From Bacteroidales bacterium (lineage in GTDB: Bacteria > Bacteroidota > Bacteroidia > Bacteroidales > Bacteroidaceae), in the NCBI GenBank assembly GCA_018064685.1, contig JAGHUS010000014.1, positions 1-64,000 on the forward strand: DNA of 64,000 bases, read 5' to 3'. The notes below the pieces were generated by a model. The model did not search any database and was not told where the DNA came from. It saw nothing but the letters and a program-made list of their open reading frames with translations. Each line of letters starts with the position of its first letter. Position 1 is the first letter of the stretch. The translations under genes were made by a program, and so were the position numbers. Positions 11,723-58,052 of the stretch are shown one piece after another.

Positions 11723-11858
11723 GAAATACACGAAACACTGTGTTGTTCTGGGTGTAAAGCCAACGAAAACCGCCCCTAACGACTCACTCGTCTTGTCGTG
11801 TTTTTTTGGTGAATCAGGGGGTCTGACGCCATGATTCACGAGAAGAAAGGACAAAGGA

Positions 11859-25614: not shown

Positions 25615-25727
25615 AAATATACGACTGATAATGACGAGACCTAGGACACAAAACCATTTACCAACTCATTATGAGCACGTTACAGAGAAATAACGATACT
25701 GGATAAATAGAGTTCTCAAACACAATG

Positions 25728-38441: not shown

Positions 38442-38449
38442 CCCACATT

Positions 38450-40815: not shown

Positions 40816-40991
40816 TTTTTCTGATTTGATGGATGGCTTTTGCAGACGTGCAAAATGCAGAGCTCTTGGCACAAGGGTTGATGATATGAGTGGCTTCAGC
40901 TGTCGGGAAGCTTTCTTACCAGCAGATGAAGGTGCTCATAGCATCAAGGGCTTTGCAGAAGCCCCTCATCCTTCAAATCCTTTTTTATCTC
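40816..40991 (+). ncRNA. Structured element A (four-helix junction)
   Basis: One of five full copies of a divergent element. Flank CTTTTTCT (40816-40823) and TTTTTTATCT (40982-40991). Basal helix GATTTGATGGATG with CATCCTTCAAATC (40824-40836/40968-40980). First hairpin TTTTGCA/TGCAAAA (40839-40856). Central arm TGATG-A-TATGAG with CTCATA-G-CATCA (40880-40891/40936-40947). Last hairpin GGGCTT/AAGCCC (40949-40965). This fills most of the 486-bp gap between the antitoxin gene and the transposase. Confidence 0.6.
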
Positions 40992-41093
40992 ATCTTCTCA
41001 GAGGAAATGTTTTTCTTGTTTTTTGCGAGTGAAGCGAGCGGTTTTTGCCGCAGGCGTGTTTTTGTCTAAAAGAAAGTCATCGTCATCGTTACA

Positions 41094-41128
41094 AATTACA
41101 CAAAGGTGTCAGACACCTTTGTGTAATT
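41094..41128. repeat. RAYT palindrome abutting the transposase stop
   Basis: Perfect palindrome with 17-base arms. Its last base touches the TAG stop of the transposase at 41129. Confidence 0.9.
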
Positions 41129-42211
41129 CTACGCCATCTCTATCTTTTTGCCAGAAGGCAAAATCAATTCTGGGTTCTTGCACCCTCTGATGATGCCCTC
41201 TGAAATACCAGTCATACGACTAAGATGTCTGATGCTGATGCCAGCATCCCTCACCACAGCCAATGCCGAACGCATCCGTGTCTTGTCAAGTCGCTGAAAT
41301 TCCGTAATCGAATCCGTGCAGGTCAACCCCAACAACGTATCCAAAATCAATCTATCCAACGAATCCGCATCCACCTTATCCTTCTTCGCTTGTTGCAAAT
41401 TACACAAAAGTGTCTGACACCATTGTGTAAATCTGTCAATCAAAGAAGTATCTTCAACCACCTCCGAGGCATCATCTTCAATCGTTCGTATATCATCATC
41501 CGTCAGTTCTGTTTTCGCAATCTGCTTTCTATCAACCATTTTCGAAAGCATCTCATATTCGCGCTTGATTATTTCGCGAGCATCCGAACCTGGAGCAAAC
41601 TCTTCTTCCTCCACCTCTCTATTCACCATCAGCACCCATTCCCTGATTTCTTCAGGCGACATGCCGAATGCCCCTTTATCCAATGTACAAATCAAAGCTT
41701 TATCAGCATCCGAAGATGGATTTTTACACAAAGGTGTCTGACACCTTTGTGTAATTTCTCGATAGGAGGAATACTGATACTGCCCAGGCAATTCGCATAC
41801 ACCCGACTTCACAGGGTTACGATGGATGTACTTCAGTAATGTGCGAAAATAATCTGGATCGTCCACCGGTTCGCTCTTAAACCTATCCTGATACAAGTGT
41901 CCTACCCTTTGGTAGCGCATATTGAAAAATCGCGCATAAGCTGAACCGATGCGCTTCACCACATCTGCCAGCGGTACCTTATGCGTACCCAAAAGCAGGT
42001 GCACGTGATTGTCCATCAAACAATACGCATACACATCAAAGTTCGGCTCATCCACAGTTTTTCCTTCCGTATTGGTCACTTTCGACTGATACATAATCCG
42101 CAGAAAACCCTGATAGTCCTCCGAAAACTCAAAGATTCTTTGTTTATTCACGCCCCTGAGCATCACATGATAGATGCCCGAGACACTCACTTCGCGTTGC
42201 TTTCGTCCCAT
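41129..42211 (-). CDS. REP-associated tyrosine transposase (Y1/RAYT)
   Basis: 360 residues from the ATG at 42211 (MGRKQREVSVSGIYHVMLRG). The Y1 transposase domain has the HUH pair in CLMDNHVHLLL and the conserved GSAYARFFN, VGHLYQDRF and LLKYIHRNP blocks, with the catalytic Tyr expected in the last region. The C-terminal part ends in an HTH-like segment (IRHLSRMTGISEGIIRGCKN). Such enzymes nick at REP palindromes and spread them. Two palindromes lie inside this gene in frame, read as REITQRCQTPLCKN and RFTQWCQTLLCNL. Further copies touch its stop and lie upstream. Confidence 0.9.
   Translation of the reverse strand: MGRKQREVSVSGIYHVMLRGVNKQRIFEFSEDYQGFLRIMYQSKVTNTEGKTVDEPNFDVYAYCLMDNHVHLLLGTHKVPLADVVKRIGSAYARFFNMRYQRVGHLYQDRFKSEPVDDPDYFRTLLKYIHRNPVKSGVCELPGQYQYSSYREITQRCQTPLCKNPSSDADKALICTLDKGAFGMSPEEIREWVLMVNREVEEEEFAPGSDAREIIKREYEMLSKMVDRKQIAKTELTDDDIRTIEDDASEVVEDTSLIDRFTQWCQTLLCNLQQAKKDKVDADSLDRLILDTLLGLTCTDSITEFQRLDKTRMRSALAVVRDAGISIRHLSRMTGISEGIIRGCKNPELILPSGKKIEMA
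41397..41432. repeat. Degenerate palindrome inside the transposase gene
   Basis: Two or three changes from the perfect palindrome. In frame it encodes TQWCQTLLCNL. Confidence 0.8.
41724..41757. repeat. Intact palindrome inside the transposase gene
   Basis: Arms TTACACAAAGGTGTC and GACACCTTTGTGTAA around one base. In frame it encodes ITQRCQTPLCK. Confidence 0.9.
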
Positions 42212-42233
42212 AGTTGATATCTTTTTGGCTGAC

Positions 42234-42269
42234 AAATTACACAATGGTGTCAGACACCTTTGTGTAAAT
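42234..42269. repeat. Palindrome upstream of the transposase
   Basis: One mismatch in the arms (CAATGG against CCTTTG). It lies 22 bases upstream of the ATG, in the leader. Confidence 0.85.
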
Positions 42270-42323
42270 CCTCATCTTTTATAACGCAGAATCCGTTTAT
42301 TTATTGTGTTAAAGGAGAAGAAA

Positions 42324-42357
42324 ATTACACAAAGGTGTCTGACACCTTTGTGTAAAA
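42324..42357. repeat. RAYT palindrome
   Basis: Arms of 15 or more bases, central T. It is one of three copies in the 405-bp gap 42212-42617, which otherwise holds only the CGTCATCGT repeat array. Confidence 0.9.
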
Positions 42358-42417
42358 TCTGGTCTGGAAATGTACCAATCCAAAAGAATGATAGCGTTTT
42401 ATGAAAATTCGCGAGCA

Positions 42418-42456
42418 AAAATTACACAAAGGTGTCTGACACCTTTGTGTAATTTT
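42418..42456. repeat. RAYT palindrome, longest arms
   Basis: Perfect 19-base arms around a central T. Confidence 0.9.
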
Positions 42457-42526
42457 ACCCGAAAAGAAAAAGTCATCGTTCTCGTTTTCGTATAGATAAT
42501 CATAATGAAAATGCATCGTTTACTTT

Positions 42527-42630
42527 ATCGTTATCGTAATGAGTGTATCGTCATCGTAACGAGTGCATCGTCATCGTAGCCAAGTGTATCGTCATCGTAA
42601 CGAGTGCATCGTCATCGTTATCGTGCCGAA
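42527..42630. repeat. CGTCATCGT repeat array
   Basis: Units of GTGTATCGTCATCGTAACGA type, about five in a row. The array overlaps the stop codon and last codons of the WbuC-like gene. Related sequence occurs at 41078-41090 and 63409-63508, and inside two coding regions (58743-58772, 60419-60454). Confidence 0.75.
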
Positions 42631-43061
42631 GGCGTAAGGAACTCCTCTGTCTCTACGGGGTCGTATGCTCCATCCTTGGCCTCAAATATCGTGGTGCCGT
42701 CCTCCAGTGCCACGAAGGTATGCCATGCGGCTCGGGGCACTACGACACCCGAACACTCACTGCCGGCCTCCATCATCACACGCTCCAGCTCCTGACCCTT
42801 GCTGTCGTACATCGCCTCATAGCCTCTGCCCTTCATCACTATCACCACCTCGTTCGTGTCGCGGTGGCGGTGTATGGGGATGACCGTGTCCGTCATCAGC
42901 ACGTTCAGCATCTTCATCGAGGTGTCGTGCCATGATGGGTTCCCATCGGCATCCTTCGGCTCGAAAGCCTCCGTCCTCAGGTCATAGTGTATACGTCTGC
43001 GGGGTGAAGCCTCTGCCCGAGACTCCACCTCGCCAAACAATTCAAAATCTAGTCTCTTCAT
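42618..43061 (-). CDS. WbuC-family cupin metalloprotein
   Basis: 147 residues from the ATG at 43061 (MKRLDFELFGEVESRAE). Single cupin fold with metal ligands in PIHRHRDTNEVVIVMKGRG and a later His in RAAWHTFVALEDG. WbuC proteins sit in O-antigen and capsule clusters; their reaction is not known. The gene follows the WecA-like transferase. Its first 29 bases plus leader are duplicated 46 bases upstream, and its end lies in a repeat array. Confidence 0.85.
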   Translation of the reverse strand: MKRLDFELFGEVESRAEASPRRRIHYDLRTEAFEPKDADGNPSWHDTSMKMLNVLMTDTVIPIHRHRDTNEVVIVMKGRGYEAMYDSKGQELERVMMEAGSECSGVVVPRAAWHTFVALEDGTTIFEAKDGAYDPVETEEFLTPSAR

Positions 43062-43115
43062 CACAGCAATGCAATTCGCAAAAAGGTTCAAAATCCAGTC
43101 GTTTCATCACAGCAA
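43041..43115. repeat. Direct repeat of the wbuC 5' end
   Basis: Two 29-base copies (43041-43069 and 43087-43115) differ at two positions. The first holds the WbuC start codon; the second overlaps the stop of the upstream transferase gene. Confidence 0.85.
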
Positions 43116-44591
43116 CAGTTTCACTACTCTTGCTGCACCCAATGGCTCTCTCTTCACCACCTCCAGCACATGGTCCTGCTCCATCTCAAACAGGATGGGA
43201 TACACACGCATGGGGTCAGCACCACTCTCCTTCACGATGTCCTCTACATTCACACTCTCCTTGCCCGTCAGGTACTTCACTATGGCAAGCTGATCTTTCT
43301 CTTTGTTGTTCATATCTTCTGGTTTTTTGTTAAGTTTCTCTTTGTAAGTAATGAAATAATCCTCATACGCACCCTTGTCCAGCCACATCTGCAAAGCCTT
43401 CCACCATCGCTTGTCGCCCAGGTGCGTCACTCTCGACATCTCGTTGAACTTCCTGAACGCCTTCGTGTTGTGCTTCTGCTGATAATGCAGGAACACATAC
43501 GTGCCCCACACCAGCAATACGGCAGCACCGATGGTCACGTACAGCTGGCACTCCTGACAGCATCCAGCCCTGTACACAGCATACCACACTGCCACGACCA
43601 GCAGGTTCAGCAGCAGCTCGCTCAGTCCCGTTATCAGATGACTCACGCCCGAGGCAATGAACGCATGGTGCAGATGCGTCTTGTCCGCACTGAACGGACT
43701 CACACCCCTCATCACGCGGGCCGTCATCACCCTCAGCGTGTCAAACACCGGCACGCTCGCCACCGCCAGCATCATAGCCACCACACACAGCACCCTGCCC
43801 TCGCCGGCCAAGGCCGTCACCGTCTCGGCGTTCTTGCTCGACAGCATGCGTATGATGAACCAGCTCACCAGCAGTCCCATCACCATCGTTCCGGCATCGC
43901 CGATGAACATTTTGCTTCTCGAACCAAACACATTATGCACATAGAACGGCACCAGTGCACCCGCAAAGCAGAAGGCCAGGGCCGCATTGCTCACATCCCC
44001 TCGTTTCACGAATATCACACCGAATATCACCGAGCAAGCCATGCACAGTCCGCTCGACAGTCCGTTCACGCCGTCCACCATGTTATAGGCATTGATGATG
44101 CCTACGCCCGCGAACACCGTCAGTGGCACACCTATCCACCACGAGAACTTACCCACGCCCCACAATCCGTGAAACGAGTCCACACACATGCCCGAGCCAT
44201 ATATCACGCCCAGCATCACCAGCATCTCTATCACCAGTCGTGCCCGTGGCGTCAGTCCCATGATGTCGTCCAGCGCACCCACATACAGCATGATGCTCGC
44301 GCCCATCAGCACCGGTCCGATGCCTATCAGCTGCGATCCCTGTGTCAGTACATCTACGTCCCATCCACGCGACACTATTGCCGTGCTTGCGAACGTCAAT
44401 ATTCCGAACAGCAGTCCGAAGAACACCGCTATGCCACCCAACACCGGCACCGGTGTCTTCTGCAGTTTTCTGGCATCCGGGTTGTCCACCAGTCCCTTAA
44501 CTTTCGCTACCTTCAGGATCTTCAGGAAGATCCAGTGTACGGCATAGACTGACATCAGCCAGCTCAATGCCAATTGCAAATAAATATTCAT
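43107..44591 (-). CDS. WecA/MraY-family glycan lipid-carrier transferase
   Basis: 494 residues from the ATG at 44591 (MNIYLQLALSWLMSVYAVHW). About ten membrane spans fill residues 1-355. Signature blocks are DNPDARKLQKTPVPVLGG, the Asp-rich YVGALDDIMGL, NAYNMVDGVNGLSSG and FIGDAGTMVMGLL, and the loop DKTHLHHAF. It would transfer a sugar-1-phosphate to undecaprenyl phosphate to begin a surface glycan. The cytoplasmic tail of about 130 residues (EDMNNKEKDQLAIVKYLTGK..., winged-helix-like) is longer than in WecA and may be regulatory. Confidence 0.92.
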   Translation of the reverse strand: MNIYLQLALSWLMSVYAVHWIFLKILKVAKVKGLVDNPDARKLQKTPVPVLGGIAVFFGLLFGILTFASTAIVSRGWDVDVLTQGSQLIGIGPVLMGASIMLYVGALDDIMGLTPRARLVIEMLVMLGVIYGSGMCVDSFHGLWGVGKFSWWIGVPLTVFAGVGIINAYNMVDGVNGLSSGLCMACSVIFGVIFVKRGDVSNAALAFCFAGALVPFYVHNVFGSRSKMFIGDAGTMVMGLLVSWFIIRMLSSKNAETVTALAGEGRVLCVVAMMLAVASVPVFDTLRVMTARVMRGVSPFSADKTHLHHAFIASGVSHLITGLSELLLNLLVVAVWYAVYRAGCCQECQLYVTIGAAVLLVWGTYVFLHYQQKHNTKAFRKFNEMSRVTHLGDKRWWKALQMWLDKGAYEDYFITYKEKLNKKPEDMNNKEKDQLAIVKYLTGKESVNVEDIVKESGADPMRVYPILFEMEQDHVLEVVKREPLGAARVVKLLL

Positions 44592-44631
44592 TGTTTCTTG
44601 TGTTTTGATTTCGTCAACATACAACTAACCG

Positions 44632-44675
44632 CACGGATTGTGTGAGTGGGTAATGACCTACTCACACAATCCGTG
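44632..44675 (-). terminator. Long hairpin between GT2 and transferase genes
   Basis: A perfect 16-bp stem, CACGGATTGTGTGAGT with ACTCACACAATCCGTG, around a 12-base loop, 41 bases before the transferase start. It could be a terminator for the upstream glycan genes or an attenuator for the transferase. Confidence 0.6.
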
Positions 44676-44762
44676 TAGTTAGCATATAAATAGAAGAAAT
44701 ACTATTTCAAATGGAAGATGGTATATCGTAAGTCAATAAACCCTCCACCAAATAAAAAAAAA

Positions 44763-44781
44763 TATTCACGATTCGTGAATA
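44763..44781. promoter_or_regulatory. 19-bp palindrome, operator-like
   Basis: TATTCACGA and TCGTGAATA around one base, in the spacer between the GT2 and transferase genes. It is a possible regulator site. Confidence 0.35.
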
Positions 44782-44870
44782 AAGTTATAATGCTTTGAGG
44801 GCATTTCCCAACTATACTACAAAACGAAAAATGTATATAAGGAAACGTCTTTTTTAGTTATCGCATGAAG

Positions 44871-45713
44871 TTACTTCTTTGTCAAGAACTTCTGTCTCAT
44901 TTTACTACCATAAATCCACGCAATCATCTTCACAGGCATCAAGCGGAATACTAGGCGGCTGATCGGATAAACATACCTCCATGTCAGCACACCACGCAAG
45001 TCCTTGATTCCTCTCATATACACCTTGAACTCTGGCCATGCTTTCTGACGACTCCTGCGTTCAAACATACCACCCGAACACTCGAAGTAGTACACTACAT
45101 CCTGCAGATTACTGATGCTGTATCCCTGCCTCAAGATGTCATACCACAGTGCAATATCTTCGTTCAGCGGATAGCGGTCATCATAGCGTACGCCACCCTC
45201 TCGGAAGATATGCATCCTCATCACAACCGTAGGGTGTGCACATGGCGAAGCCTTGCAGATATACTTCTCCAGGTGATGAGTCGGGTATCTACGAATGCAG
45301 AGACACAGATGCTCTTCATCAAATTCCTGCATTGCACCCCCCAACACATCTACATCTCCATGCTCCTCGAGGTACTTCACTTGCAATTCGAAGCGTCTAG
45401 GAGCCGAATAATCGTCCGAGTCATTTCTTGCTACAAGGTCACTCGTCACATGCTCCAAACCCTTATTCAGGGCAGCCGTCAATCCCATGTTCGTCTCGTT
45501 CTTTGGCGAGCACAGTTTGTCGCCAAGCACCCCACGCCATTTCTCTATAACGGCATACAGCTCATCCGTCAGCGGACCGTCCTCCACCAACACTATCTGA
45601 TCCGGTTTCCGCGTCTGGTCATCCCACACGCTCTTCAGACTTCTGTCCAAATGTGCGCCAGTCTCTTTCCTATAGACCGACATCAGTACTGATAATGTCA
45701 ACATATTTTGCAT
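44871..45713 (-). CDS. Glycosyltransferase family 2
   Basis: 280 residues, GT-A fold. The opening LSVLMSVYRKETGAHLDRSL and VLVEDGPLTDELY, then NMGLTAALNKGLEHVTSDLVARNDSDDYSAPRR with the metal-binding DSDD, are diagnostic. No membrane span; cytoplasmic. It adds a sugar to the growing lipid-linked glycan. It follows the fucosyltransferase gene by 16 bases. Confidence 0.92.
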   Translation of the reverse strand: MQNMLTLSVLMSVYRKETGAHLDRSLKSVWDDQTRKPDQIVLVEDGPLTDELYAVIEKWRGVLGDKLCSPKNETNMGLTAALNKGLEHVTSDLVARNDSDDYSAPRRFELQVKYLEEHGDVDVLGGAMQEFDEEHLCLCIRRYPTHHLEKYICKASPCAHPTVVMRMHIFREGGVRYDDRYPLNEDIALWYDILRQGYSISNLQDVVYYFECSGGMFERRSRQKAWPEFKVYMRGIKDLRGVLTWRYVYPISRLVFRLMPVKMIAWIYGSKMRQKFLTKK

Positions 45714-45729
45714 AGTATGTTCTATGGGG

Positions 45730-46731
45730 TTATTTACTCAGTTTATATTGCAATGTGCTCCATATGCGACCCAGCACAATGAAGTACTTCTTCAGGTCAA
45801 AGAACTTCATGTCGCTCTTTATCGTCACCTGTCGCTTCTCTGCCTTGGGATTCATGTCCTGCAGGTGCTTTATAACCATCGGGAAGATGTTATACTCATC
45901 CAGCACCTGTTGTTTGGCCGTCTCCACATCCTCGGCATAGCGTCCTGCAAAGTCTCCTGACAAAGCTTCGTCTATGATGCGTATTGCACCCTCTGGGTCG
46001 TGTATATCAATGGCACGATAAGCGTTCTCGCTGAAATACTTGCCCACGTTCGGACAACCATAGTAGAACGTGAAGGCATTACCCAGAAACGAGTCTGCCA
46101 GCTTCTCTGTCCAGTAATAAGGTTCCGAACTGTTCTCCAGCGCAATGTGGTATTTGTATGGAGCCACCACATCCCACTTGTCGTCAAAGCCATTGAAACC
46201 CTTGCCGAATATCTCCAGCTTATCGCCATAGTGCTCCTTCAGTTTCTGCACAAAGGCAATGCGGTCTCTGTGTCCCTTGGTGAAGCACTTGTTGCTCGAT
46301 ATCACCGATATCAGCTTTGTCTTCTCCGGACGTTCCGTCTTGAACTCGTCATATCCACGGCTGTAGGTCACCTCACTATCGTGCTGACCCACACGACCGC
46401 AATACCATCCCAGGCAAGGCTGATCCATCACCACGTTCTTGTGCTTGATGTCACTTCTGCACGACACGATCTTGCCAAACTGATCCGTAAACTTCCGTGC
46501 ATAGTGATACACCGATTCCGGCTCCGTAGGGAAGAACATAGTATTCTCCGGAGCCACACAGCAAGTCTCCTCACCTCCGTCCATATCCTTGCAGAATACA
46601 GCCCAGAAGTCAGCCTCCTCCACCTTGTCGTTGATGTAGAATTTATAGTCTCCCCACACAAAACTGCCCTTGGGAGCCTGTCTGTTTATACCCTTATAGT
46701 TAGGGTACACCGTAAGTTTCACTTTATACAT
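45730..46731 (-). CDS. GT10 alpha-1,3-fucosyltransferase-like
   Basis: 333 residues. The GT10 donor-binding region is clear: YKYHIALENSSEPYYWTEKL and ADSFLGNAFTFYYGCPNV. It would move fucose from GDP-fucose to GlcNAc or galactose acceptors, as in Lewis-type host-mimicking glycans (known for GT10 of Helicobacter and Bacteroides; the acceptor here is inferred). The basic C-terminal region may bind membrane. It sits within a tightly spaced glycan operon. Confidence 0.9.
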   Translation of the reverse strand: MYKVKLTVYPNYKGINRQAPKGSFVWGDYKFYINDKVEEADFWAVFCKDMDGGEETCCVAPENTMFFPTEPESVYHYARKFTDQFGKIVSCRSDIKHKNVVMDQPCLGWYCGRVGQHDSEVTYSRGYDEFKTERPEKTKLISVISSNKCFTKGHRDRIAFVQKLKEHYGDKLEIFGKGFNGFDDKWDVVAPYKYHIALENSSEPYYWTEKLADSFLGNAFTFYYGCPNVGKYFSENAYRAIDIHDPEGAIRIIDEALSGDFAGRYAEDVETAKQQVLDEYNIFPMVIKHLQDMNPKAEKRQVTIKSDMKFFDLKKYFIVLGRIWSTLQYKLSK

Positions 46732-46747
46732 AAATATATTGGTATTT

Positions 46748-47710
46748 TTATTTCGTTAATTTTATACTCGTGACCTTATTCAAGGCATAGCCTCCGGCTA
46801 CACTTATCGTCATCAAAAGCAAGAAGCCTAACAGCCATGAGTCAGTCAGATTCATTACTGAGAACCGTCCGAATGCAAACACATGATGCACCAAATAGAT
46901 CTCGAAACTGATATTAGCCACAAAGCTAACCACCTTGCTCTCCTTTACACTTCTGAAAATCACCATAGCAATGCAAAGGCATGCCATTGCAGCTGCTATT
47001 CCAAGAAGTTTTGCTATTACATCATTTCCCTCATGCCAGTCACAATAATAGCAAATCAACGTACATGCTATTACCGCTACACCCAACAACACGCCTATAG
47101 TCTGTCGTTTGCCACACCATTCCACAATCCCTGGCGCTTTGTCAAACATTATCACAAACAAAGCGAGGTAAGTAAACATATAGCCCGGAAGCCCCTTTGA
47201 TGACACAACTACTTGAAGCAAAATTGCGACAGCGATCAACAATCCATATTTCCACGAATTGCCCCCCCTAATCAGTTTTTTAAGTCTGCTCACCGGCACT
47301 ACTGCCAAGTAGCAGAACGCTATCATTGACATAAACCATAGATGTCCAAAACCATCCAACTTGTCAAACCATGGCAGATAAGCAAAGTGCATCACAACGT
47401 CCTTTATCCCAATATGATAGCCACCTACCGCAAGACAGAACGCAAACATCAAAACAAGGAATGGATAATATACCCAACTCAGTCTTCCAAAGCGATGTTT
47501 CAAAAAGTCAAAACCATACGATGGTCTTCCTTTTTTGTTCCATGCCATACCAAGCAGCAATCCCGACATCGTAAGGAACAAAGCGTTAAAGGTGCCACCA
47601 CACCAACCGCCTAACCAATTTGTTTCGCTAAAGTTATAGCAGAAGTGGCACAAAACTATACCCACGATAGCGATTGCACGTAGGTAATCAAAAGCAATAA
47701 TTCTATTCAT
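46748..47710 (-). CDS. Acyltransferase family 3 (membrane)
   Basis: 320 residues with about ten membrane spans. The opening RIIAFDYLRAIAIVGIVLCHF (His of the active site in LCHF) and the MSGLLLG segment are typical of O-acetyltransferases that modify surface polysaccharide. It starts three bases after the nucleotidyltransferase stop, so the two are co-translated neighbours. Confidence 0.9.
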   Translation of the reverse strand: MNRIIAFDYLRAIAIVGIVLCHFCYNFSETNWLGGWCGGTFNALFLTMSGLLLGMAWNKKGRPSYGFDFLKHRFGRLSWVYYPFLVLMFAFCLAVGGYHIGIKDVVMHFAYLPWFDKLDGFGHLWFMSMIAFCYLAVVPVSRLKKLIRGGNSWKYGLLIAVAILLQVVVSSKGLPGYMFTYLALFVIMFDKAPGIVEWCGKRQTIGVLLGVAVIACTLICYYCDWHEGNDVIAKLLGIAAAMACLCIAMVIFRSVKESKVVSFVANISFEIYLVHHVFAFGRFSVMNLTDSWLLGFLLLMTISVAGGYALNKVTSIKLTK

Positions 47711-47713
47711 TTC

Positions 47714-48844
47714 TTATCTATATCCGTTACTCTTCATCCAGCAGAAATGCCACAATCGCCAAATGGGCGACCAAGCAATCTCCCAGAATCCGTATTTCAA
47801 AAATCTTCTGTTTCTCTTAATTCCATTCCACACTCGGTGTATGGGATTGCTTTCATTATCGAAAGCAACCTTGTTACTCTCATCATAATGCCCGAAATTT
47901 CCTCCTGTCATAATCTCGCTTAGCAACTCGGCTCCCGCCTCAGGATCAGGCTCACAAAGCAACAACTCTTCTGGCATCCCAAACACATTGTGCAGAATAT
48001 CCATCAATCCTGCAGCAAATCTTTTCATACCGAGCTTGTCAATCCGGTCAACGATGGTTTTAATGTTTTTTGCGGAGCCTTTTTTATCTAATTTTGAAAC
48101 CTGCTGAAAATTTCGCAAGACGAAATAATAATCAATGAATTGCCGTAAACCAATCCCTTCTCTCAGCAAATGCTGATACATGTGAACCATAAGGAACACG
48201 AGATTAAACTCAGTTGTAGGAACACAAATCCCAGTGTTATCGTTATCGTACAAACATACCTTGTTTGTCATACACTCCTTTTCATGTTCCTTGCAGAACT
48301 TCTTCCACCTCCTATTCGTTAGCGGATTCCTGAATATTGCAGGTATAGGATGAACTTCAACTTCAGTATCTGCAAACAAATCCCACACAATATGGTTAGC
48401 CACCACGCTACACTCTGGTTGAGATAGGCGCACATAATCTATTGTCTTCTTATAGTCACCCGGAACCCAAAGGTCTATATCTCCACTCTGTCTAAGCAAT
48501 TTCATATCGCCATATAGAGTAGCTACTCCCTGTCCCTTCAGTACGCACGAACGCAATCCATCGGATGAAAGTTTCTCTTGCACCTCAACACATTGTCTAT
48601 TCACCACCTCATTCCGTTGTTGGATTTTTGCCGCCATTCCCATCCAAGTGAGGTATAGCAACTCTGGCGGCTCCTGCCGTTGTGCTTGTAATTTTTGCAC
48701 TCCGGCAAAACATACCCCCACAAGGCTCTGCTTCTTCGCCATCGCATACAATTCGCCCCACTCATCCGCACTTGGCGTATGAGAGAGGCAACTCCGCGTG
48801 CCAATGGCAACTTGTATTAGTTCGAAAAATGTTTGTTCTATCAT
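47714..48844 (-). CDS. Nucleotidyltransferase-family protein (PF14907-like)
   Basis: 376 residues. The motif VLKGQGVATLYGDMKLLRQSGDIDLWV carries the DxD of a pol-beta-fold nucleotidyltransferase, with a third acidic residue likely in EVEVHPIPA. This family is common in Bacteroidota polysaccharide loci; its substrate is unknown. Its ATG overlaps the stop of the KAP NTPase gene (TAATG at 48842-48846), so translation is coupled to that gene. Confidence 0.85.
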   Translation of the reverse strand: MIEQTFFELIQVAIGTRSCLSHTPSADEWGELYAMAKKQSLVGVCFAGVQKLQAQRQEPPELLYLTWMGMAAKIQQRNEVVNRQCVEVQEKLSSDGLRSCVLKGQGVATLYGDMKLLRQSGDIDLWVPGDYKKTIDYVRLSQPECSVVANHIVWDLFADTEVEVHPIPAIFRNPLTNRRWKKFCKEHEKECMTNKVCLYDNDNTGICVPTTEFNLVFLMVHMYQHLLREGIGLRQFIDYYFVLRNFQQVSKLDKKGSAKNIKTIVDRIDKLGMKRFAAGLMDILHNVFGMPEELLLCEPDPEAGAELLSEIMTGGNFGHYDESNKVAFDNESNPIHRVWNGIKRNRRFLKYGFWEIAWSPIWRLWHFCWMKSNGYR

Positions 48845-51800: not shown

Positions 51801-52005
51801 AGTAGCAACCTGCACACAGAGAGACAATTATTATTGCTCCGCCCAACCAAGCCTCAGAGAGTTCTGCGATAGCATGTTCTTGCAGAAATTGCAGCAGTCT
51901 TGTAATATATGTGTTTGCTGCCAAGCATAATATGCAGCAGAAAAGCATAATGCCATAAACAGCAAGCGTTGACCTATGCTCTAACATTAGTTTGTATAGT
52001 CTCAT
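48844..52005 (-). CDS. Membrane-anchored KAP P-loop NTPase
   Basis: 1053 residues from the ATG at 52005 (MRLYKLMLEHRSTLAVYGIM). Four likely membrane spans lie in residues about 12-140. The KAP domain follows: Walker A GITGKWGIGKSSFLN (about 200) and Walker B FIIIEDLDRLTAKE (about 305), then a long helical region and a C-terminal SH3-like part (VGDFVMLVKEKYQKVADSL...WYEHDEVVAIP). KAP NTPases occur in phage-exclusion proteins such as PifA and in other membrane-linked defence contexts. It lies 82 bases after the PIN gene and is fused by a TAATG overlap to the next gene. Confidence 0.88.
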   Translation of the reverse strand: MRLYKLMLEHRSTLAVYGIMLFCCILCLAANTYITRLLQFLQEHAIAELSEAWLGGAIIIVSLCAGCYLYAKTRRTDLYIQHQYVALASFVVLFYAYYRIIDGTFVFWGLMHDGHCVLAYADTVFLLYLWLIVRRKAYKRRDEEESASRTMLLDMPIEDEHEDYFGYHRMASALLADLKATDVSKRGFTVGITGKWGIGKSSFLNLLEKQIKDSDGIVVRFYPRSSVSYKQISADFFSVLSVELSQYHTGVIKMMGKYARSIRSLDGEGWIYRSLDAIENLVGDDDKARVEAAIEEIGRKIFIIIEDLDRLTAKEILEVLKLTDRNGNFKNTFFITAYDKDYTNSVLRHYLGFDKEQVFTDKYFNYEIALPAHSIYTERNYVRNYLTQQIAFEEQDAITKSELLDAWDNLGYEVISALGVMRHVKRFINIFMSRFPKVKNDVDVKDFLRLTLLRYKDIEAYYMLSEADLVVRGNFITSSSESVVYQKKDMETLLANRQNAWDGTIDLMNKLFPKQESKETYDLDKDYKKIMMVNSFDLYFYDEMVGKLYHKDLSRLFVEDDEQVAIGKLREMVARDEKSVEEYLRSRSMRRLATQNALIREFHLLVELYKLRRNINNQSSLVWLMNNEAAKEAVEHGVVNEKEEYQNIIQDLLKELISDYAIEIGGLLLLHLEEYQQRGASELLLSRNQYVELASWCQRTYFTKFGEEDWNLNYALELSDIKIGKGNKFIVVDEAKIELKAFMELHAEYFAQMIVFANVSRKPAPRTITFGFIEKFNPYHFFPVDGFEFKDWVNDSIDDEDTRFVLNRLYGECKDGQYLSIPNMSGKDNIEGFGMFATAIREYDANKLDKEVLDFLKENISTDLETIVFALEQDKDAIRSSIKRLADRGLIESRLVSMKDKMEPFEVGDFVMLVKEKYQKVADSLIYTNNVFRILEIDETGITAKYKLDGIDNWYEHDEVVAIPIDGVHDKDIYYDPVIMASYVAPGQPVPEHHTDYSYFMDRFKRCTYKDKTYVELVNAANCQYVHEAQHYMKEELGGSDLKINHQINFNRV

Positions 52006-52020
52006 ATTGAAGATAATATT

Positions 52021-52048
52021 GTTCCGTTCGCGGAATCGAACCGCCACT
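52021..52048 (-). other. tRNA T-arm-like remnant
   Basis: On the minus strand GGCGGTTCGATTCCGCG followed by AACGGAACA looks like a T arm plus acceptor strand. No D arm or anticodon arm precedes it, so it is not a tRNA gene. It may be an old integration-site copy or chance. Confidence 0.25.
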
Positions 52049-52087
52049 AATTTCATTATTAGATAGAAATCTCAACAGCTTCCAATG

Positions 52088-53167
52088 TCATTCATATTCC
52101 CAAGATCTACCATCATCAATCGAATTGATGAGTTCAGATTGTGAAAGAAGCTTGCCTTGATTTATCGAGTCCAATTCAGGAAATTCGCCATTCAAATCAA
52201 TTTCAAAATCAACAGGGAACTCTAATGTACACTCTAGTTTTGAAACAATGTCATCATCAAAGAAGTACCATTGTTTATCTTCTCCATCATAATACCCTGT
52301 ATCATAATCTGGGTGTGACACGGATATGTTAGCAGTTACCAAAGCATTTGCGCGAACAACATACACCTCCTCATATTGACCGATTATCTCAAAGTCTTCA
52401 AAATCAATATCTATTCCGGGATCAATGCTATAGTCGTTAATTTCCTCTATCTGGAGAGCCGCACCATACAAGATGTCATTATCCAACTGATCATAGACCC
52501 ATTTGTAGATGCGATTCTTTATCTGCCCATCCATTGTGATGGACAGCTTTGCTTGATATAACAATTTATTAAGAGCTTCTTCTTCTTCCCTACGACGTAT
52601 TAGTTCGTTTACATATTCTTTATCATCCCTGTAGATTAAGAATTCCGATTTGTAATCTCTCATATCGCCATCTTTCGATAGTACAAAGCAAGTCGTATTA
52701 CGCTCTTTGCACCAAAGTTCTAGAGACTTCAAAACAAAGGCATCTGGAAACTCCGACTTCTTTTTCTCCGAGAACGGGGCTCTCCGTTCAAAGTATGAAT
52801 CCAAGATTGATTGTAAATCAATATCCTGCTGCAATGGTATTCGAACCGTTCTTGACTTTGTGACATTGTCTAAGAATCGCTTCTCTATCTCTGGTTCGGC
52901 ATCCTTCACCAATTTACGTAGTTCTTCGATTTTGCTTTTCACACTTGGAATCTCTTTCAAAACGGATTGCAAGAGTTTCTCCACGAGACGCGTCTTATCT
53001 TCACTTACCCTCTTCCGGATATGACGCAGCACCTCTCTTTCCGTAATCTCAGGCAATAGAATACGAATTCGACCATCGGAGGCTTCGTTTATAAGAGTCT
53101 TCAGTATGCCAGATGCAACAAACTGACCTTCCTCATATACACTCGTATCTATAAATACATTATCCAT
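52088..53167 (-). CDS. PIN-domain RNase-like protein (DUF4935 type)
   Basis: 359 residues. The N-terminal half is a PIN fold with acidic residues in VFIDTSVYEE, EITEREVLRH and FPDAFVLKSLELW...VLSKDGDMRDY. A coiled region (REEEEALNKLL) and an acidic, beta-rich C-terminal domain (about 210-359) follow. PIN proteins are metal-dependent RNases common in toxin and defence loci. It is 12 bases after the DUF1848 gene and upstream of the KAP gene, and so part of one operon. Confidence 0.82.
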   Translation of the reverse strand: MDNVFIDTSVYEEGQFVASGILKTLINEASDGRIRILLPEITEREVLRHIRKRVSEDKTRLVEKLLQSVLKEIPSVKSKIEELRKLVKDAEPEIEKRFLDNVTKSRTVRIPLQQDIDLQSILDSYFERRAPFSEKKKSEFPDAFVLKSLELWCKERNTTCFVLSKDGDMRDYKSEFLIYRDDKEYVNELIRRREEEEALNKLLYQAKLSITMDGQIKNRIYKWVYDQLDNDILYGAALQIEEINDYSIDPGIDIDFEDFEIIGQYEEVYVVRANALVTANISVSHPDYDTGYYDGEDKQWYFFDDDIVSKLECTLEFPVDFEIDLNGEFPELDSINQGKLLSQSELINSIDDGRSWEYE

Positions 53168-53179
53168 TTGCCAAAAGTT

Positions 53180-54106
53180 TTAAAACAAACTATCAGATTT
53201 GAGTAGAGCTACTTTTCTTTCTTTTATCACATCATCAGCTGTCAATTCTCCAGTGAGCAGAGTTGAGGTTTTGATGTGTCTTGAACTCAGATTCTTTACC
53301 TTTTCGTTGTTGAAATTAGCGTAACAATATGCACAAGCATGGCAACAAGTATTGTATGCACCGATATCAATGCTCTCAACACATCCGCACTCTACTCGCT
53401 GGTTCTTATCTTTCTTGACATCGATATGGTACCCACATATTTCTTCAATCAGTTGAGGATCTATACAACACCCGTGTTCTACACCTTGCTCTTCAAGATC
53501 TATATTCTCGGCACAACTCAACACTTGCATATTATGCTTCTTTGCAATTTCCACAAGTTTTTCAGCCAAGAGTCGCATCTCGCTCTCACTTGGTTCTCTC
53601 ATATTGAGAGGTTTAGTATTTGTTACAGTCTTCTTGTATAAGTCCACGAAACTGATTACGCATCTTGAAGTAAATCCTTCGAGTCGTTTAGCAAGCTCCT
53701 CGAAATACTTAATATGATAGGCTACATCTATCTTGTCAGTTATGAGGATAGGATCGAAACGCCATATAACTTTATCAGCTCCGATTTTCAACGAAAGTTC
53801 CTTGAAGGTTTCTATGATCTCAGCCTTAACAGGAACACCCGATTCAATACGCTTGTCGTACGGATTTATAGTGAACTGAAAATAGTACTTATAATCTTTC
53901 AGTTCGTCCAACCTTGCAAGCATCTTCTTTGGATTCTTCGTCCAGAACACGATACAATCCACCACATCAGGCGTAATCCGAACACGACTCACCTGATGTA
54001 TATTCATAGGGTTTCTCACATCCACAAAACCCTCTTTTATGCGATTAAAGAACCACTCGCTATAGAATGCAGGGATGTCGGTTCTTCTTGAAACGGATAG
54101 TATCAT
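53180..54106 (-). CDS. DUF1848 (radical-SAM-like) protein
   Basis: 308 residues. Opens MILSVSRRTDIPAFYSEWFF and has WTKNPKKMLARL, WRFDPILITDK and a Cys cluster near the end: CGCVESIDIGAYNTCCHACAYCYAN. The CxxCxYC-like group and TIM-barrel-like segments suggest an Fe-S enzyme related to the spore-photoproduct-lyase group (inference). Its start overlaps the stop of the methyltransferase gene by four bases, so the two are translated together. Confidence 0.82.
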   Translation of the reverse strand: MILSVSRRTDIPAFYSEWFFNRIKEGFVDVRNPMNIHQVSRVRITPDVVDCIVFWTKNPKKMLARLDELKDYKYYFQFTINPYDKRIESGVPVKAEIIETFKELSLKIGADKVIWRFDPILITDKIDVAYHIKYFEELAKRLEGFTSRCVISFVDLYKKTVTNTKPLNMREPSESEMRLLAEKLVEIAKKHNMQVLSCAENIDLEEQGVEHGCCIDPQLIEEICGYHIDVKKDKNQRVECGCVESIDIGAYNTCCHACAYCYANFNNEKVKNLSSRHIKTSTLLTGELTADDVIKERKVALLKSDSLF

Positions 54107-55002
54107 TGTATATGAAGAAATATTTGTTTGGAACTACAACACCCTACATTTGCAGTGAATGTGTTGCCTTTAAGATTACTGAATACTAAGGCTCCGGAAT
54201 TGTATCCTTTCCAATTTTCTCCACCTCTGTATGGATCGCCCGGGAAATACGCATACGAAACACTATGTTTAACACCAGCAACGCGCAACTTGTTTATAAG
54301 TAATTTCATAAGCTGTGTACCAGAGTTCAATGAGGCATAGGATCCATAATAGTTGATGTCATTAAAGAGGATATTTCTCACTCCATTTTGAATAACAAAA
54401 TCCACAATATCATCAATAAATTGATTTTTCTGTTGAAGAGAATAGAACTTGGCTGCATGCGAAAGGAGATAATTTAAAACAAGTAAATTTATTTTACCAT
54501 CCTCAAATTTATGATAGTCTGCAAATAAGTTAGATGTATGAAAGTTTATTGCATGAGGCAATCCATTAAATGAATCTACGACCTTTCTTTGAATGGGTTC
54601 CCACACATCAATTAGATCATGACCTTCATAATGAATAGTTACATTCATATTCATCATTTTGAATGCCTTGATAATTCCAAAAACCTCAGAACCTGGGCCA
54701 CATCCTAATGAAACTACATTTAGACGTGGTAGTGGTTTGCTGTAATTATATGAAAGCATTGCATAGCATATCTCCGATGCAAAACGATTAAAGAAACGTA
54801 GTGTATATTGATATGTAATCTTATAACAACTATAAGAAAAATTGGGTTGCCCCCATTGTATATGATTAAGGCATCTACTGCAATCACAATCTGTTGCTCC
54901 ACACTGTGTGCAATAATGACCTATGGGACAATTGTTACCACAAGATGGAGCTGTATTTAGTGAGTCAAGACACCATTGTTGTAAATTCAAAAGTTCTTGC
55001 AT
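54103..55002 (-). CDS. Cys-rich SAM-dependent methyltransferase-like protein
   Basis: 299 residues from the ATG at 55002 (MQELLNLQQWCLDSLNTAPS). The N-terminus has about eight Cys (CGNNCPIGHYCTQCGATDCD), suggesting bound zinc or an Fe-S cluster. A Rossmann methyltransferase core follows, with VVSLGCGPGSEVFGIIKAF and YEGHDLIDVW. The target is unknown. It is first of four tightly packed genes (methyltransferase, DUF1848, PIN, KAP), which suggests one nucleic-acid- or RNA-directed system. Confidence 0.78.
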   Translation of the reverse strand: MQELLNLQQWCLDSLNTAPSCGNNCPIGHYCTQCGATDCDCSRCLNHIQWGQPNFSYSCYKITYQYTLRFFNRFASEICYAMLSYNYSKPLPRLNVVSLGCGPGSEVFGIIKAFKMMNMNVTIHYEGHDLIDVWEPIQRKVVDSFNGLPHAINFHTSNLFADYHKFEDGKINLLVLNYLLSHAAKFYSLQQKNQFIDDIVDFVIQNGVRNILFNDINYYGSYASLNSGTQLMKLLINKLRVAGVKHSVSYAYFPGDPYRGGENWKGYNSGALVFSNLKGNTFTANVGCCSSKQIFLHIQ

Positions 55003-55076
55003 AGCGATTATTTTTTTTGCTCCCCACCGCAGTATCGATCTGCGCTTTGCCGTCACTCGGGTGGGGATGTCCTTGT

Positions 55077-55442
55077 TTACTTCTGTTGCTCAATCACCTC
55101 GTTCAGTACAAGTATCTGTACAATGGCTTTGTGCAGTTTACGCTTCCATGCAAATCGAGCTTCGATGATTCCTGTGCCAGGATAGTGACTCTTGCGAGTA
55201 CGCTCCAGATGGATGTCGTAACCACGGTCGATGGACTCGCAGATCTGGATGAGCTTGTTGAGTTTGAGTACGTCCGAGTCCTCCAGCGTTTGCTTTTAGG
55301 CGCGATAGAAAATTCCATTTCTCAATTGGAACTCTTTCTCCATGGCGCGACGGCTGTCTGGATATACCATATCAGCCTGTTTGAGCACCATGATGGTGAG
55401 GCGTTTTGCTGCCTCCATCGGGTCTAAAAACTTTTGATTCAT
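55077..55442 (-). pseudogene. Disrupted 122-codon gene (in-frame TAA)
   Basis: The minus-strand frame opens MNQKFLDPMEAAKRLTIMVL and reads through 48 codons to TAA at 55296-55298. It then continues in the same frame (KQTLEDSDVLKLNKLIQICE...) to a proper stop at 55077. Both halves look like one helical protein, so a single nonsense change is likely. The second half has the basic segment ARFAWKRKLHKAI. Not recognised. It sits at the edge of the replication-like module. Confidence 0.6.
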
Positions 55443-55624
55443 GATCAATGAATTGAATTAAAATTGTTGTGTATATGTTAAAATTATTACTCTAAAGTCC
55501 TAAAATTAATGTATTTCTAAGAAGTGTGTCCCCACTGGGGACGCATTCCGGCCAATGTCAGATAAAAGCAGTATTTTCGCAGCGAAATCTCAGTAAGAGG
55601 TTAATGGGTTAAAGGGTTAAAAGG

Positions 55625-55993
55625 TTAAACTTTACCCTCAAAATCCTTCCTCAACAACGAGAGAAGAGCTGCCACGTGGTTGAACTGAGGACGGAGGTTC
55701 TCAACTTCCAACTCGGTGATATAACCCAGGTCTTGGGCGTTCTGGAGCTGACTGAAAGCTTCGGTCATGCTACCGAATGCGATTTCTATGAAGTGAATCT
55801 TCTCTTTATAGGATTTGCGACCAGAGCCCTCAGCAATGTTACTTGTGACAGAAGTAATCGACCTCCTAATCTGATCGCCGAGAGCAAAGCGCTCCTCCAT
55901 AGGGAACTTGTTCTGCAACAGGTACACATCTCTGACGAGCAAACGTGCAACCTTATATGCTTCAAGATCCTCAAAACTGAATTTTCGTATCAT
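55625..55993 (-). CDS. Four-helix-bundle (S23/bAvd-like) protein
   Basis: 122 residues. The pattern FEDLEAYKVARLLVRDVYLL, FALGDQIRRSITSVTSNIAEG and SYKEKIHFIEIAFGSMTEAF is the four-helix-bundle family, found alone, in 23S rRNA insertions, and as the Avd accessory of diversity-generating retroelements. No reverse transcriptase or template repeat is present here, so a retroelement role is not supported. It is probably a nucleic-acid-binding pentamer. GGTTAAAGGGTTAA simple repeats flank it on both sides. Confidence 0.85.
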   Translation of the reverse strand: MIRKFSFEDLEAYKVARLLVRDVYLLQNKFPMEERFALGDQIRRSITSVTSNIAEGSGRKSYKEKIHFIEIAFGSMTEAFSQLQNAQDLGYITELEVENLRPQFNHVAALLSLLRKDFEGKV

Positions 55994-56070
55994 AATATTA
56001 ACTTGAATTTATACTTTTAACCATTTAACCCCTTAACCATTTAACCCCTTAACCATAAACTTTCAAAACA

Positions 56071-56465
56071 ATGGAACTATTCGGTTATCTATCTTTCGTG
56101 GGTGATGTGCAAGAGATTCCCACACAGAACCCTCAGTATGGCAATGAGCCTTTCATCGTGCGCGAGATCTGCGTACATTCGTTCGTAACCGGCACAAGTA
56201 ACGGTGAGTGTGTGCCTTTCCTTCGTGGCATGACCTTACGCCTCACTGGTCGCCAAGCCCAGACCTTCAATGCTGCTGTCGGCAGTCAGTTGACGGTGGA
56301 GTATGGCAGCACCTGCAACCTTATTTCGATGAGCGTGACCATAAGCTCCGCGCCAACGGCAACCTCACCGTCAACCGTATCTGCATCATCCAACAAGCCG
56401 ACTTGGATCAACTGCAGCGCATCATGGAAGGCTACGCTCGGATCAATAATCCACAACCTATGTAA
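56071..56465 (+). pseudogene. Frameshifted small gene of the replication module
   Basis: The first frame reads MELFGYLSFVGDVQEIPTQN...LTGRQAQTFNAAVGSQLTVE. After about 56322 the sensible continuation is in the next frame (PYFDERDHKLRANGNLTVNR, then IICQ-like helix ADLDQLQRIMEGYARINNPQ) to a stop at 56463. No canonical slippery heptamer is seen, so an indel is likelier than programmed frameshifting. The protein may be an OB-like single-strand-binding protein (weak inference). It is preceded by TTAACCCC simple repeats. Confidence 0.55.
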
Positions 56466-56481
56466 TTGTCCAACAAAAACC

Positions 56482-56515
56482 GATATCCACCCCTCACAGT
56501 CGTGAGGCAATAAAC
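56482..56515 (-). ncRNA. Minimal structured element F
   Basis: Minus strand: GTTTATTGCC, stem CCTCAC/GTGAGG, then GGGGTGGATATC. It has the flanks of elements C and E but only the basal stem. It lies 17 bases after the stop of the disrupted gene. Confidence 0.4.
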
Positions 56516-56543
56516 TGGATATAAACCGTTCTTTGAAATGATT

Positions 56544-56721
56544 AGATAAAAAAGGTCATCTTCCTCTTTTAGCCTATCGGCTTGGGTATATGACGAGCAG
56601 TAAAATCCTTGAGTGTTCTCCTAAAGTCGAAGGCATACGCCCAAGCACTCAGACATTTTCCTGTTCATCACATCCCCATTTGAGCACACTCAACTAAAAG
56701 ATGAAGTCGACAGAAAAAGCC
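56544..56721 (-). ncRNA. Structured element D (four-helix junction)
   Basis: Minus strand, in order: flank CTTTTTCT; basal helix CTTCATCTTTTAG with CTAAAAGAGGAAG (56694-56706/56560-56572, one mismatch); hairpin TTGAG/CTCAA (56680-56693); TGATG, then arm CAGGAAAAT with ATTTTACTG (56655-56663/56598-56606); hairpin AGCC/GGCT (56571-56582); flank TTTTTTATCT. The sequences differ from the other copies but the helices are kept. Confidence 0.55.
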
Positions 56722-56842
56722 CTTCGGGAGAAAAAGCCTCCTATCGTCGGAAATAAGTTTTTACTGATATCAGTCTCTTGATAAACGATTTAAATTACGA
56801 TTTTTTTTCGAGCTTTGCTCGCTTTTTTTTCGAAGAATGAGC

Positions 56843-56996
56843 CTTTTTCTCTTTTGGTGGATGGGGTTGCCTTCCAAGGGAAGGTGATGATGTAGTTGGC
56901 AAATTTATCTGGAAGCTTGCTTGCAAGGAAATTTGACGGCTACAGCATCATGGCTGATGCAATCAGACACCCCATCCATCAAAAGCTTTTTTATCT
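56843..56996 (+). ncRNA. Structured element B (four-helix junction)
   Basis: Flank CTTTTTCT. Basal helix CTTTTGGTGGATGGGGT with ACCCCATCCATCAAAAG (56851-56867/56969-56985). Hairpin CCTTC/GAAGG (56870-56884). Central arm TGATG-AT-GTAG...CTAC-AG-CATCA with inner helix CAAATTT/AAATTTG. Flank TTTTTTATCT. It is back to back with element D in one intergenic space (56466-57077). Confidence 0.6.
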
Positions 56997-57077
56997 TATT
57001 CTTCTCAGGGACAAGGTTTATTTCAGGTTTTTCGCCTGCCAAAGCAGGGGTTTAACTTGGTTTTCGTCTAAATATAT

Positions 57078-57239
57078 ATGCTTATGAACAACTCTTCACT
57101 CTTCTGCATCGACCGCCAAAGGGTATGCCGCATCCGGTGGTACTTCCCTCGTCGCATTGCCTGTCCACTGTGCCAGAGGGTTTATGGTTTAAGGTTTATA
57201 GTTTATGGAGCCATGCGGTTCAAAGTAAAACATCCCTAA
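57078..57239 (+). CDS. Possible 53-residue Cys/Arg-rich protein
   Basis: MLMNNSSLFCIDRQRVCRIR is followed by RIACPLCQR. Two Cys pairs could bind zinc. The last 15 residues derive from a GTTTATGGTTTAAGG simple repeat, so this may be a truncated remnant. Not recognised. Confidence 0.3.
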   Translation: MLMNNSSLFCIDRQRVCRIRWYFPRRIACPLCQRVYGLRFIVYGAMRFKVKHP

Positions 57240-57249
57240 ACCCTAAACC

Positions 57250-57579
57250 ATGAACCATAAACCTTCAAACGGTTACTTCTCCGAACATCCAGAACTGCTT
57301 GACGGCTTGCCGGAACACTGGAAGTCGTTCAGCGATAAGCCATGGTTCCCATACGTAGTCGGGGCGTTAGCTCGTCCCGACGAGCGTATGCGGAAGCAGT
57401 TGCTCGCGGAACTTGGTCAGCCGGACATGCCTGAACGCATCTGGCAATTCGCCATATCCTCCTTCATGCTCGTCCTCACCTACAAGTGGCCACCCGTCAC
57501 GATGTCCGGCACCGAAGATGCCTGGCGGTTGTTTCGACAACATCTAGTGGAGACGTATGAGGATGATCTCTCGCCGTAA
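57250..57579 (+). CDS. Hypothetical protein, 109 aa, replication module
   Basis: Reads MNHKPSNGYFSEHPELLDGL, PEHWKSFSDKPWFPYVVGAL and a helical end with an acidic tail. The first codons fall inside a CCTAAACCATGAACC simple repeat, so the true start is uncertain. The PWFPYV segment recalls PWYPYIREL in the DUF4373 protein downstream, which suggests a related replication-module protein. The function is unknown. Confidence 0.5.
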   Translation: MNHKPSNGYFSEHPELLDGLPEHWKSFSDKPWFPYVVGALARPDERMRKQLLAELGQPDMPERIWQFAISSFMLVLTYKWPPVTMSGTEDAWRLFRQHLVETYEDDLSP

Positions 57580-57602
57580 GGTGTGACTAAACAAAAACCA
57601 AG

Positions 57603-57750
57603 ATAAACCCCTTGGGTATGTGCAACTCTCCTTCGTCGAGTTTGATGCTACTCTTGCCTGAAAATCCTTGTATGCGAGCATCCAGATATTTTCAGACAAG
57701 ACCACCATCAGGTCTGTTCCAGCCCTTGCCCATCCCCAAGGCGATAAACA
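57603..57750 (-). ncRNA. Structured element E (four-helix junction)
   Basis: Minus strand: flank GTTTATCGCC; basal helix CCTTGGGGATG with CATACCCAAGG (57732-57742/57611-57621); hairpin GGGCTG/CAGACC; TGATG, then arm TCTTGTCTGAAAAT with ATTTTCAGGCAAGA (57689-57702/57653-57666), then CATCA; hairpin AACTC/GAGTT; flank GGGGTTTATC. It lies downstream of the 109-residue gene. Confidence 0.6.
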
Positions 57751-57840
57751 GGATATAAACCTTTCTTACCGATAACAATTTTTGAACTGAACACCACTAC
57801 ATGCAAAAGGTCAGTATCAAAGGCTAAATGTTTATCTTTG

Positions 57841-57986
57841 GTTTATCGCCTTGAAGAGGATGGTCGCCCTCGCTACGAGGGTGATGGTATGCTTCTGGTT
57901 TGGGCGTTAAAAACTTGTTTTTATAAGCACAAAGCAGGAGTATAGCATCAAGGGCGGCAGCCTCCATCCTTTTCAAGGGGTTTATC
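57841..57986 (+). ncRNA. Structured element C (four-helix junction)
   Basis: Flank GTTTATCGCC. Basal helix CCTTGAAGAGGATGG with CCATCCTTTTCAAGG (57849-57863/57964-57978). Hairpin CCCTCG/CGAGGG (57867-57881). Arm TGATG-G-TATGCTTCT with AGGAGTATA-G-CATCA (57882-57896/57936-57950). Short hairpin GGC/GCC. Flank GGGGTTTATC. With E it fills the gap 57580-58052. Confidence 0.6.
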
Positions 57987-58052
57987 CAGGTTTTTATTAT
58001 AATCAACAATTTAAACTTTTAACCCTTTAAACCCTTAAACCCTTACAAAAGT

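Follow-up and report, generated by a model that had tools for sequence, protein, structure and literature searches.

Our covariance-model analyses show that five full-length structured elements, A to E, found in a 64,000-nucleotide stretch of a Bacteroidales draft genome (contig JAGHUS010000014.1, positions 1 to 64,000; hereafter the window), form a single family. A sequence-only reading of the window had proposed them from a common plan of four helices, and model matches were obtained where it had placed them. Our preferred interpretation is that the elements form the paired ends, facing outwards, of a mobile unit delimited by ACAAAAAC...GTTTTTGT; that this unit is a small piece of mobile DNA whose longer form carries a GxxExxY nuclease is probable, and goes a step beyond what the sequence-only reading could see. 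We are more tentative, giving it a little less than an even chance, about the wider proposal of a new transposon class, in which a lone Cas4/RecB-like PD-(D/E)XK nuclease would mobilise inverted four-way-junction ends and integrate without target duplication. The case is built on sequence, which establishes the fold, the termini, the gene association, the copies at several sites and the intact active site; the nuclease would act on the ends. If the proposal holds, transposition would here be built on a nuclease resembling repair and CRISPR-adaptation enzymes, with a substrate set by fold over sequence. GxxExxY proteins are an abundant bacterial family named in NCBIfam by motif alone, and a structured DNA end bracketing such a nuclease would suggest for it both a function and a substrate open to experiment, in cultured strains that carry the elements (Xylanibacter brevis ATCC 19188 and Hallella mizrahii LKV-178-WT-2A).

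Elements of the window and their covarying fold

On the outward-reading strand, each end spans about 150 nt and consists of a basal helix, a hairpin, a long arm with a CUUG-type apical loop and another hairpin, with T-rich stretches on its flanks; the end usually closes at GTTTTTGT or a near variant. Two covariance models, R1 and R2, placed the five elements identically within a few bases. The seed of R1 comprised C, E, B and two copies from elsewhere in the same draft genome, and the model recovered in the window both A (74.7 bits) and D (27.2 bits), which were not in its seed. R2 was built from 15 sequences, with A, B, C and E in the seed and D outside it. With both models, weaker matches also fell on the antisense strand of some true copies (with R1, on E, C, B and A at 51 to 23 bits), which a near-palindromic sequence would lead one to expect.

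Two non-autonomous units and one half-unit were delimited. Unit 2 (57591..57997, 407 bp), bounded by ACAAAAAC and GTTTTTAT, consists of E as its left end (minus strand, 57596..57748; R2 127.5 bits), a spacer and C as its right end (plus strand, 57842..57992; R2 116.3 bits). Unit 1 (56473..57067, 595 bp), bounded by ACAAAAAC and GTTTTCGT, appears to group four elements around a spacer: F at the left terminus (minus, 56473..56533), the full end D at the inner left (minus, 56541..56718; R2 41.3 bits), the full end B at the inner right (plus, 56846..56997; R2 124.6 bits) and G at the right terminus (plus, 57013..57070). F and G are minimal hairpin ends. F, already singled out as a minimal copy by the sequence-only reading and indeed carrying the flank that it had named, has repeats D3/D4, common to the flanks of E, and is matched by neither R1 nor R2. 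G, absent from that reading, has repeats D5/D6 and a weak R1 match (21.6 bits at 57028-57062), without an R2 match. Element A (plus, 40816..40993; R2 96 bits) is a full four-way-junction end forming the right half of a unit, with an outer small hairpin and terminus to its right (plus, 41005..41065); a motif scan of the sequence finds GTTTTTGT at 41058-41065, and the half-unit terminates at 41065.

When the elements were folded with RNA energies and short flanks, none of 200 dinucleotide shuffles folded as well as any of the five (z -4.6 for A, -4.3 for B, -8.8 for C, -3.3 for D and -3.6 for E). DNA energies, tried on B and C only, reproduced the four-way plan (z -6.8 for B and -8.9 for C). D is the weakest of the five, its own minimum-energy fold deviating from the clean plan, and is still placed by the R2 profile with an E-value of 4e-8.

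Strong covariation in 15 and in 128 sequences supports the selection on RNA or single-stranded DNA structure that had been suspected from the five copies. Already in a five-row MAFFT alignment, unfitted to the structure, both sides had changed in 24 of the 48 predicted pairs. In larger alignments, structure-biased by construction, 15 model-aligned sequences gave 90.8% of cells that pair, both sides changed in 47 of 52 pairs and a covariation score of 0.715 (0.229 when shuffled and at most 0.214 when slid), and 128 matches (124 distinct rows, four from the window) gave 90.2% of pair cells that pair and a score of 0.836 (0.205 shuffled, at most 0.149 slid). Pairs with a change on each side numbered 51 among the 128 rows, a count not above that of shuffles (49.4; 70 of 500 reach 51), while the other four covariation measures beat 500 of 500 shuffles. 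The motif TGATG/CATCA, described early on as nearly invariant and able to pair, is near-invariant in the closest copies; across the family at large it covaries (columns 79-86 with 215-223), and this speaks for the pairing. The apical loop reads G[CUUG]C in 49 of the 128 rows, CUCG and UUUA being the next commonest.

Unit termini and a clade of GxxExxY nucleases

The succession of a minus copy and a plus copy, initially remarked for D/B and E/C, recurs across the family, with a gap of 39 to 332 bp in 26 short pairs chosen. Outwards, 119 of the 128 matches close with GTTTTTGT or a near variant, typically as GGGGTTTTnnnGGTTTTTGT, and no widely shared word was found beyond the end motif in these 128 matches. 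Termini were placed in 69 of 76 minus/plus pairs (65 distinct), and the sizes of the 69 units fall in two groups, 329-624 bp and 759-1223 bp. The two window units have the features of miniature inverted-repeat transposable elements (MITEs), being short and gene-less, with terminal inverted repeats and ACAAAAAC/GTTTT-type termini. The two ends within one unit share 52.5% identity, against 45.4% for re-paired ends, and 6 of 34 lie above the 95% control; a unit's two ends are thus hardly more alike than random ends, which argues that conservation bears on the fold more than on the sequence. Longer inverted repeats outside the termini occurred in 8 of 64 units, above the 99% control, with an earlier set of boundaries (68 of the 76 pairs placed, sometimes at an inner copy of the end motif). 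Units also seem to pile up side by side, as in a seven-element array with a nuclease gene inside (L282, Prevotella sp. P3-122, G155:C87).

The longer units enclose one gene, coding for a distinct clade of the GxxExxY protein. In one genome (G006), a 147-aa PF13366 protein is encoded, with a minus element on one side and a plus element on the other, at two loci that share 96% identity over 802 bp; the identity ends at GGTTTTTGT. From 40 regions fetched through element matches, ten open reading frames (ORFs) of eight regions were scanned, and a GxxExxY gene was found beside or between elements in five of the eight (L138, L140, L141, L156 and L173); a CBM9 gene, a GNAT gene and a weak NusG match were also found between elements of neighbouring units. 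With a clade alignment of seven bracketed proteins (A8), 11 clade loci of the genus score 216-276 bits, one of them with stops, and non-clade loci at most 112 bits; G124 holds two adjacent clade pieces (170 and 67 bits). The clade protein matches TIGR04256 (98.3 and 98.2 bits against a cut-off of 35, in the two proteins tried) and PF13366 (91.8-138.9 bits against a cut-off of 22, in seven proteins). Its PD-(D/E)XK fold and its catalytic D and ExK are intact, the active-site residues being invariant in 56 proteins, and we predict a PD-(D/E)XK nuclease of the Cas4/RecB/lambda-exonuclease type. A search of solved structures by sequence gave no match.

The association was also approached from the protein, by a scan of GTDB genomes with the A8 alignment (129 relatives; the best 80 loci were kept, some in genomes already known through the element). 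Hosts among these best 80 include Xylanibacter brevis, Hallella mizrahii, Prevotella sp. P3-122, Sodaliphilus, Muribaculaceae, Paludibacteraceae and many metagenome-assembled genomes from the rumen. An element lies at most 700 bp from the gene in 74 of the best 80 loci; to the left, the nearest element is on the minus strand at 54 loci and on the plus strand at 6, and to the right it is on the plus strand at 53 and on the minus strand at 6.

Within the genus, nine of ten clade loci had an element match, compared with 2 of 20 among the non-clade GxxExxY loci, the clade locus without a match being the one with stops (L187) and the non-clade exceptions L194 (50.5 bits) and L195 (19.5 bits). The element is present in all ten genus genomes with the clade gene. 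R2 had no match at 28 further non-clade PF13366 loci or at 30 PF05635 loci (L083-L112); in the same control scan, the clade locus L069 was matched, and the clade locus L068 was not one of the sources. A comparison made without a model found strong structure in the two outward flanks of 11 of 20 clade loci, picked from the 80, and of 2 of 44 non-clade loci, a difference that led us to reject the idea that all GxxExxY genes are alike in this respect. One of these two (L078, G037:C3) is a non-clade GxxExxY gene between very stable tandem palindromes of the CACATGAGGCACATAAGA type, unrelated to the elements. A four-helix PF05635 protein (23S rRNA IVP/bAvd-like) is encoded near unit 1 (window 55625-55993, minus); its family occurs in 32 of 41 relatives, with up to 15 matches per genome, and was rejected as a partner given the 30 loci without elements.

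Folded strand, proposed mechanism and competing explanations

In the 128-row alignment minus one doubtful terminal pair, there are 285 G-U pairs and 74 A-C, where the column make-up predicts 801 and 643, and 352 G-A/A-G mismatches for only 13 U-C/C-U. Similar counts would be expected of a cruciform under selection on both its strands; this mismatch asymmetry favours a single strand. For 64 of the 128 rows, folding with DNA energies gave a mean z of -8.06 for the sense strand and -5.70 for the antisense strand, sense being better in 56 rows; with RNA energies, the means were -6.56 and -6.82, sense being better in 32. The G-U/A-C and mismatch asymmetries, together with the strand preference of the DNA energies, lend moderate support to the view that the molecule that folds is single-stranded DNA. 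The main rival, unlikely though far from negligible, is that the folded molecule is RNA: two outward non-coding RNAs per unit would bind the GxxExxY protein, be it as a guide, a cofactor, an antitoxin-like partner or a replication intermediate, and the RNA-protein complex would bring about mobility. CUUG is a stable RNA tetraloop type, and its frequency at the apex, the excess of G-U over A-C and the strong RNA-energy z-scores are what such RNAs would lead one to expect. They would not readily account for the lack of a sense preference with RNA energies while DNA energies show one; moreover, T-runs that follow small hairpins lie ahead of the element in the G127 group and might end transcription.

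Assuming that DNA folds, a mode of movement can be proposed. Where DNA becomes locally single-stranded, during replication or repair, the outward strand would fold into the junction, which the GxxExxY nuclease may recognise. The enzyme would then cut at the terminus, within the T-rich flank; the unit, thereby released or copied, would join a new site without target duplication. Gene-less units would borrow the enzyme in trans.

Several observations weigh against such nuclease-driven mobile units. No target duplications were found, direct repeats of 1-10 bp at 65 distinct units being no more frequent than in the re-paired control, and a clean empty site was not found. Hairpin-templated gene conversion could contribute to the covariation, and the RNA energies given above are indifferent to the strand. 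Among the best 80 protein-found loci, a minus element on the left and a plus element on the right occur together in only 45, and no element was detected within 700 bp in six (L213, L233, L237, L244, L253 and L268), L244 and L268 being near contig ends. The clade gene was not shown in 42 of the 52 element-bearing genus genomes, which are drafts and include the source genome. Finally, non-clade GxxExxY genes at L138 (1555-1926) and L194 also lie beside ends, so that specificity for one clade is not absolute; this suggests either that other GxxExxY genes have been captured or that the family is broader.

Alternatively, the elements might be REPIN- or IS200-like units that depend for movement on a Y1 (HUH) transposase supplied in trans. 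A Y1_Tnp gene adjoins element A (window 41129-42244, minus), and subterminal single-strand structures are typical of the IS200 family, according to PMC6006769. This origin is very improbable: with matches counted at E-values up to 0.001, weak ones included, Y1_Tnp is found in 23 of the 52 element-bearing and in 39 of the 87 other genus genomes (Fisher p 1.0, drafts), and the element-bearing G006, G057 and G067 show none. In addition, the ends are inverted and fold on opposite strands, and the palindromic repeats around the Y1 gene are of another kind. Mobilisation by Y1/RAYT was rejected on this lack of association. The IS200-like gene beside A, coding for 371 aa, looks like a RAYT with repeats of its own: the palindrome AAAGGTGTCAGACACCTTT lies at 41102 and again at 141, and similar repeats occur up to 42.5 kb. 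Ordinary intergenic terminators or regulatory hairpins would explain the hairpin and T-run at each end and the intergenic position of the window copies. They would leave unexplained a four-helix plan and an apical motif conserved beyond the needs of a terminator, the association with a nuclease and the copies at different sites, and we hold this explanation to be just as improbable as the Y1 one.

Distribution, copies at different sites and known systems

With strict filters, R1 found copies in 7 of 41 relatives (source genome counted), all in its own genus, and missed those of G017. A wider covariance-model search among relatives, which the sequence-only reading had envisaged, revealed copies in 52 of 139 genus genomes with R2, and as many as 20 matches in one genome (overlapping antisense ones included); X. 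brevis ATCC 19188 has 16 element matches and H. mizrahii LKV-178-WT-2A 11. Seven plasmid records have distant matches, below 60% identity, and no matches were found in phages. In X. brevis ATCC 19188, units at two sites are alike at 412 of 437 aligned bases (94%) between their termini, with a spacer insertion in one, and a forced alignment of their flanks matches just 27 of 45 and 24 of 49 bases. In the relative RUI122, site 2 is filled and site 1, whose neighbourhood differs, has no element. Two copies in G127 (C51 and C67) share 473 bp at 94% with unlike flanks, a third such copy being found in G098:C12, and two copies in G067 are 87% alike over 404 bp. A search of the fetched loci for empty sites yielded no spanning match except inside a tandem array, and the window genes around the units had no counterpart at the DNA level in any of the other 138 genomes of the genus. 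The gene to the left at L158 has orthologues without an R2 element in G124, G057, G064 and G079, where the far flank also differs. Sequence comparison points to a family of mobile DNA of rumen and gut bacteria.

Among known systems, the integron attC site is a single imperfect hairpin, whereas the consensus here is a four-way junction of covarying helices; attC identity, which the sequence-only reading had listed as a way to be proved wrong, is not borne out. TnsA of Tn7 is a PD-(D/E)XK nuclease that works in transposition with a DDE partner; the clade protein belongs to the same superfamily and, if the units move, would likewise serve DNA mobility. No second gene common to the units was seen, and in trans only Y1 was searched. 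To our knowledge, no GxxExxY nuclease is known as a transposase. IS200/IS605 and REP/REPIN-RAYT systems have ends recognised as folded single strands and a Y1 HUH transposase, REPs being palindromes of 20-40 bp. The units described here resemble them in their folded single-strand ends, presumably also recognised as such, in their many short non-autonomous copies and in some inverted pairs, and differ from them in the lack of Y1 association, the PD-(D/E)XK nuclease and the 150-nt four-way junctions on opposite strands (see also PMC6006769, PMC3116915, PMC3733652). The BrickBuilt MITE of Porphyromonas gingivalis, as described in PMC4596501, is also short, intergenic and multi-copy, with terminal inverted repeats and a Bacteroidota host; it has IS5-like termini and putative target duplications, whereas our units lack target duplication and have a nuclease as partner gene. 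The 23S rRNA intervening sequence with its S23 protein (PMC4990558) is likewise a small selfish element with one small ORF, but the units here are intergenic and carry GxxExxY, and the 30 PF05635 loci were without the element. No such element is named in the titles or abstract beginnings listed by searches of open-licence literature; full-text search there for the GxxExxY family gave three papers, with a passing mention in PMC8934634; novelty is here a judgement from open-licence literature, not a proof.

In agreement with the earlier failure to assign the elements to a known RNA class, Rfam gave no credible match to them. Seven loci searched at E-values up to 1 returned six matches, to miRNA and scaRNA families, each far below the gathering score. 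Another palindrome-rich repeat, of the GTTTAGCAGCTGCTAAAC type, occurs in the window at 25446-25652 and 11475-11733, up to 93% alike in parts; it has a weak R1 match at 25472-25652 (18.9 bits) and none with R2. The sole Rfam match in the window, to group-II-D1D4-3 (38435-38623, minus; 68.1 bits), is perhaps a degraded or ORF-less group II intron.

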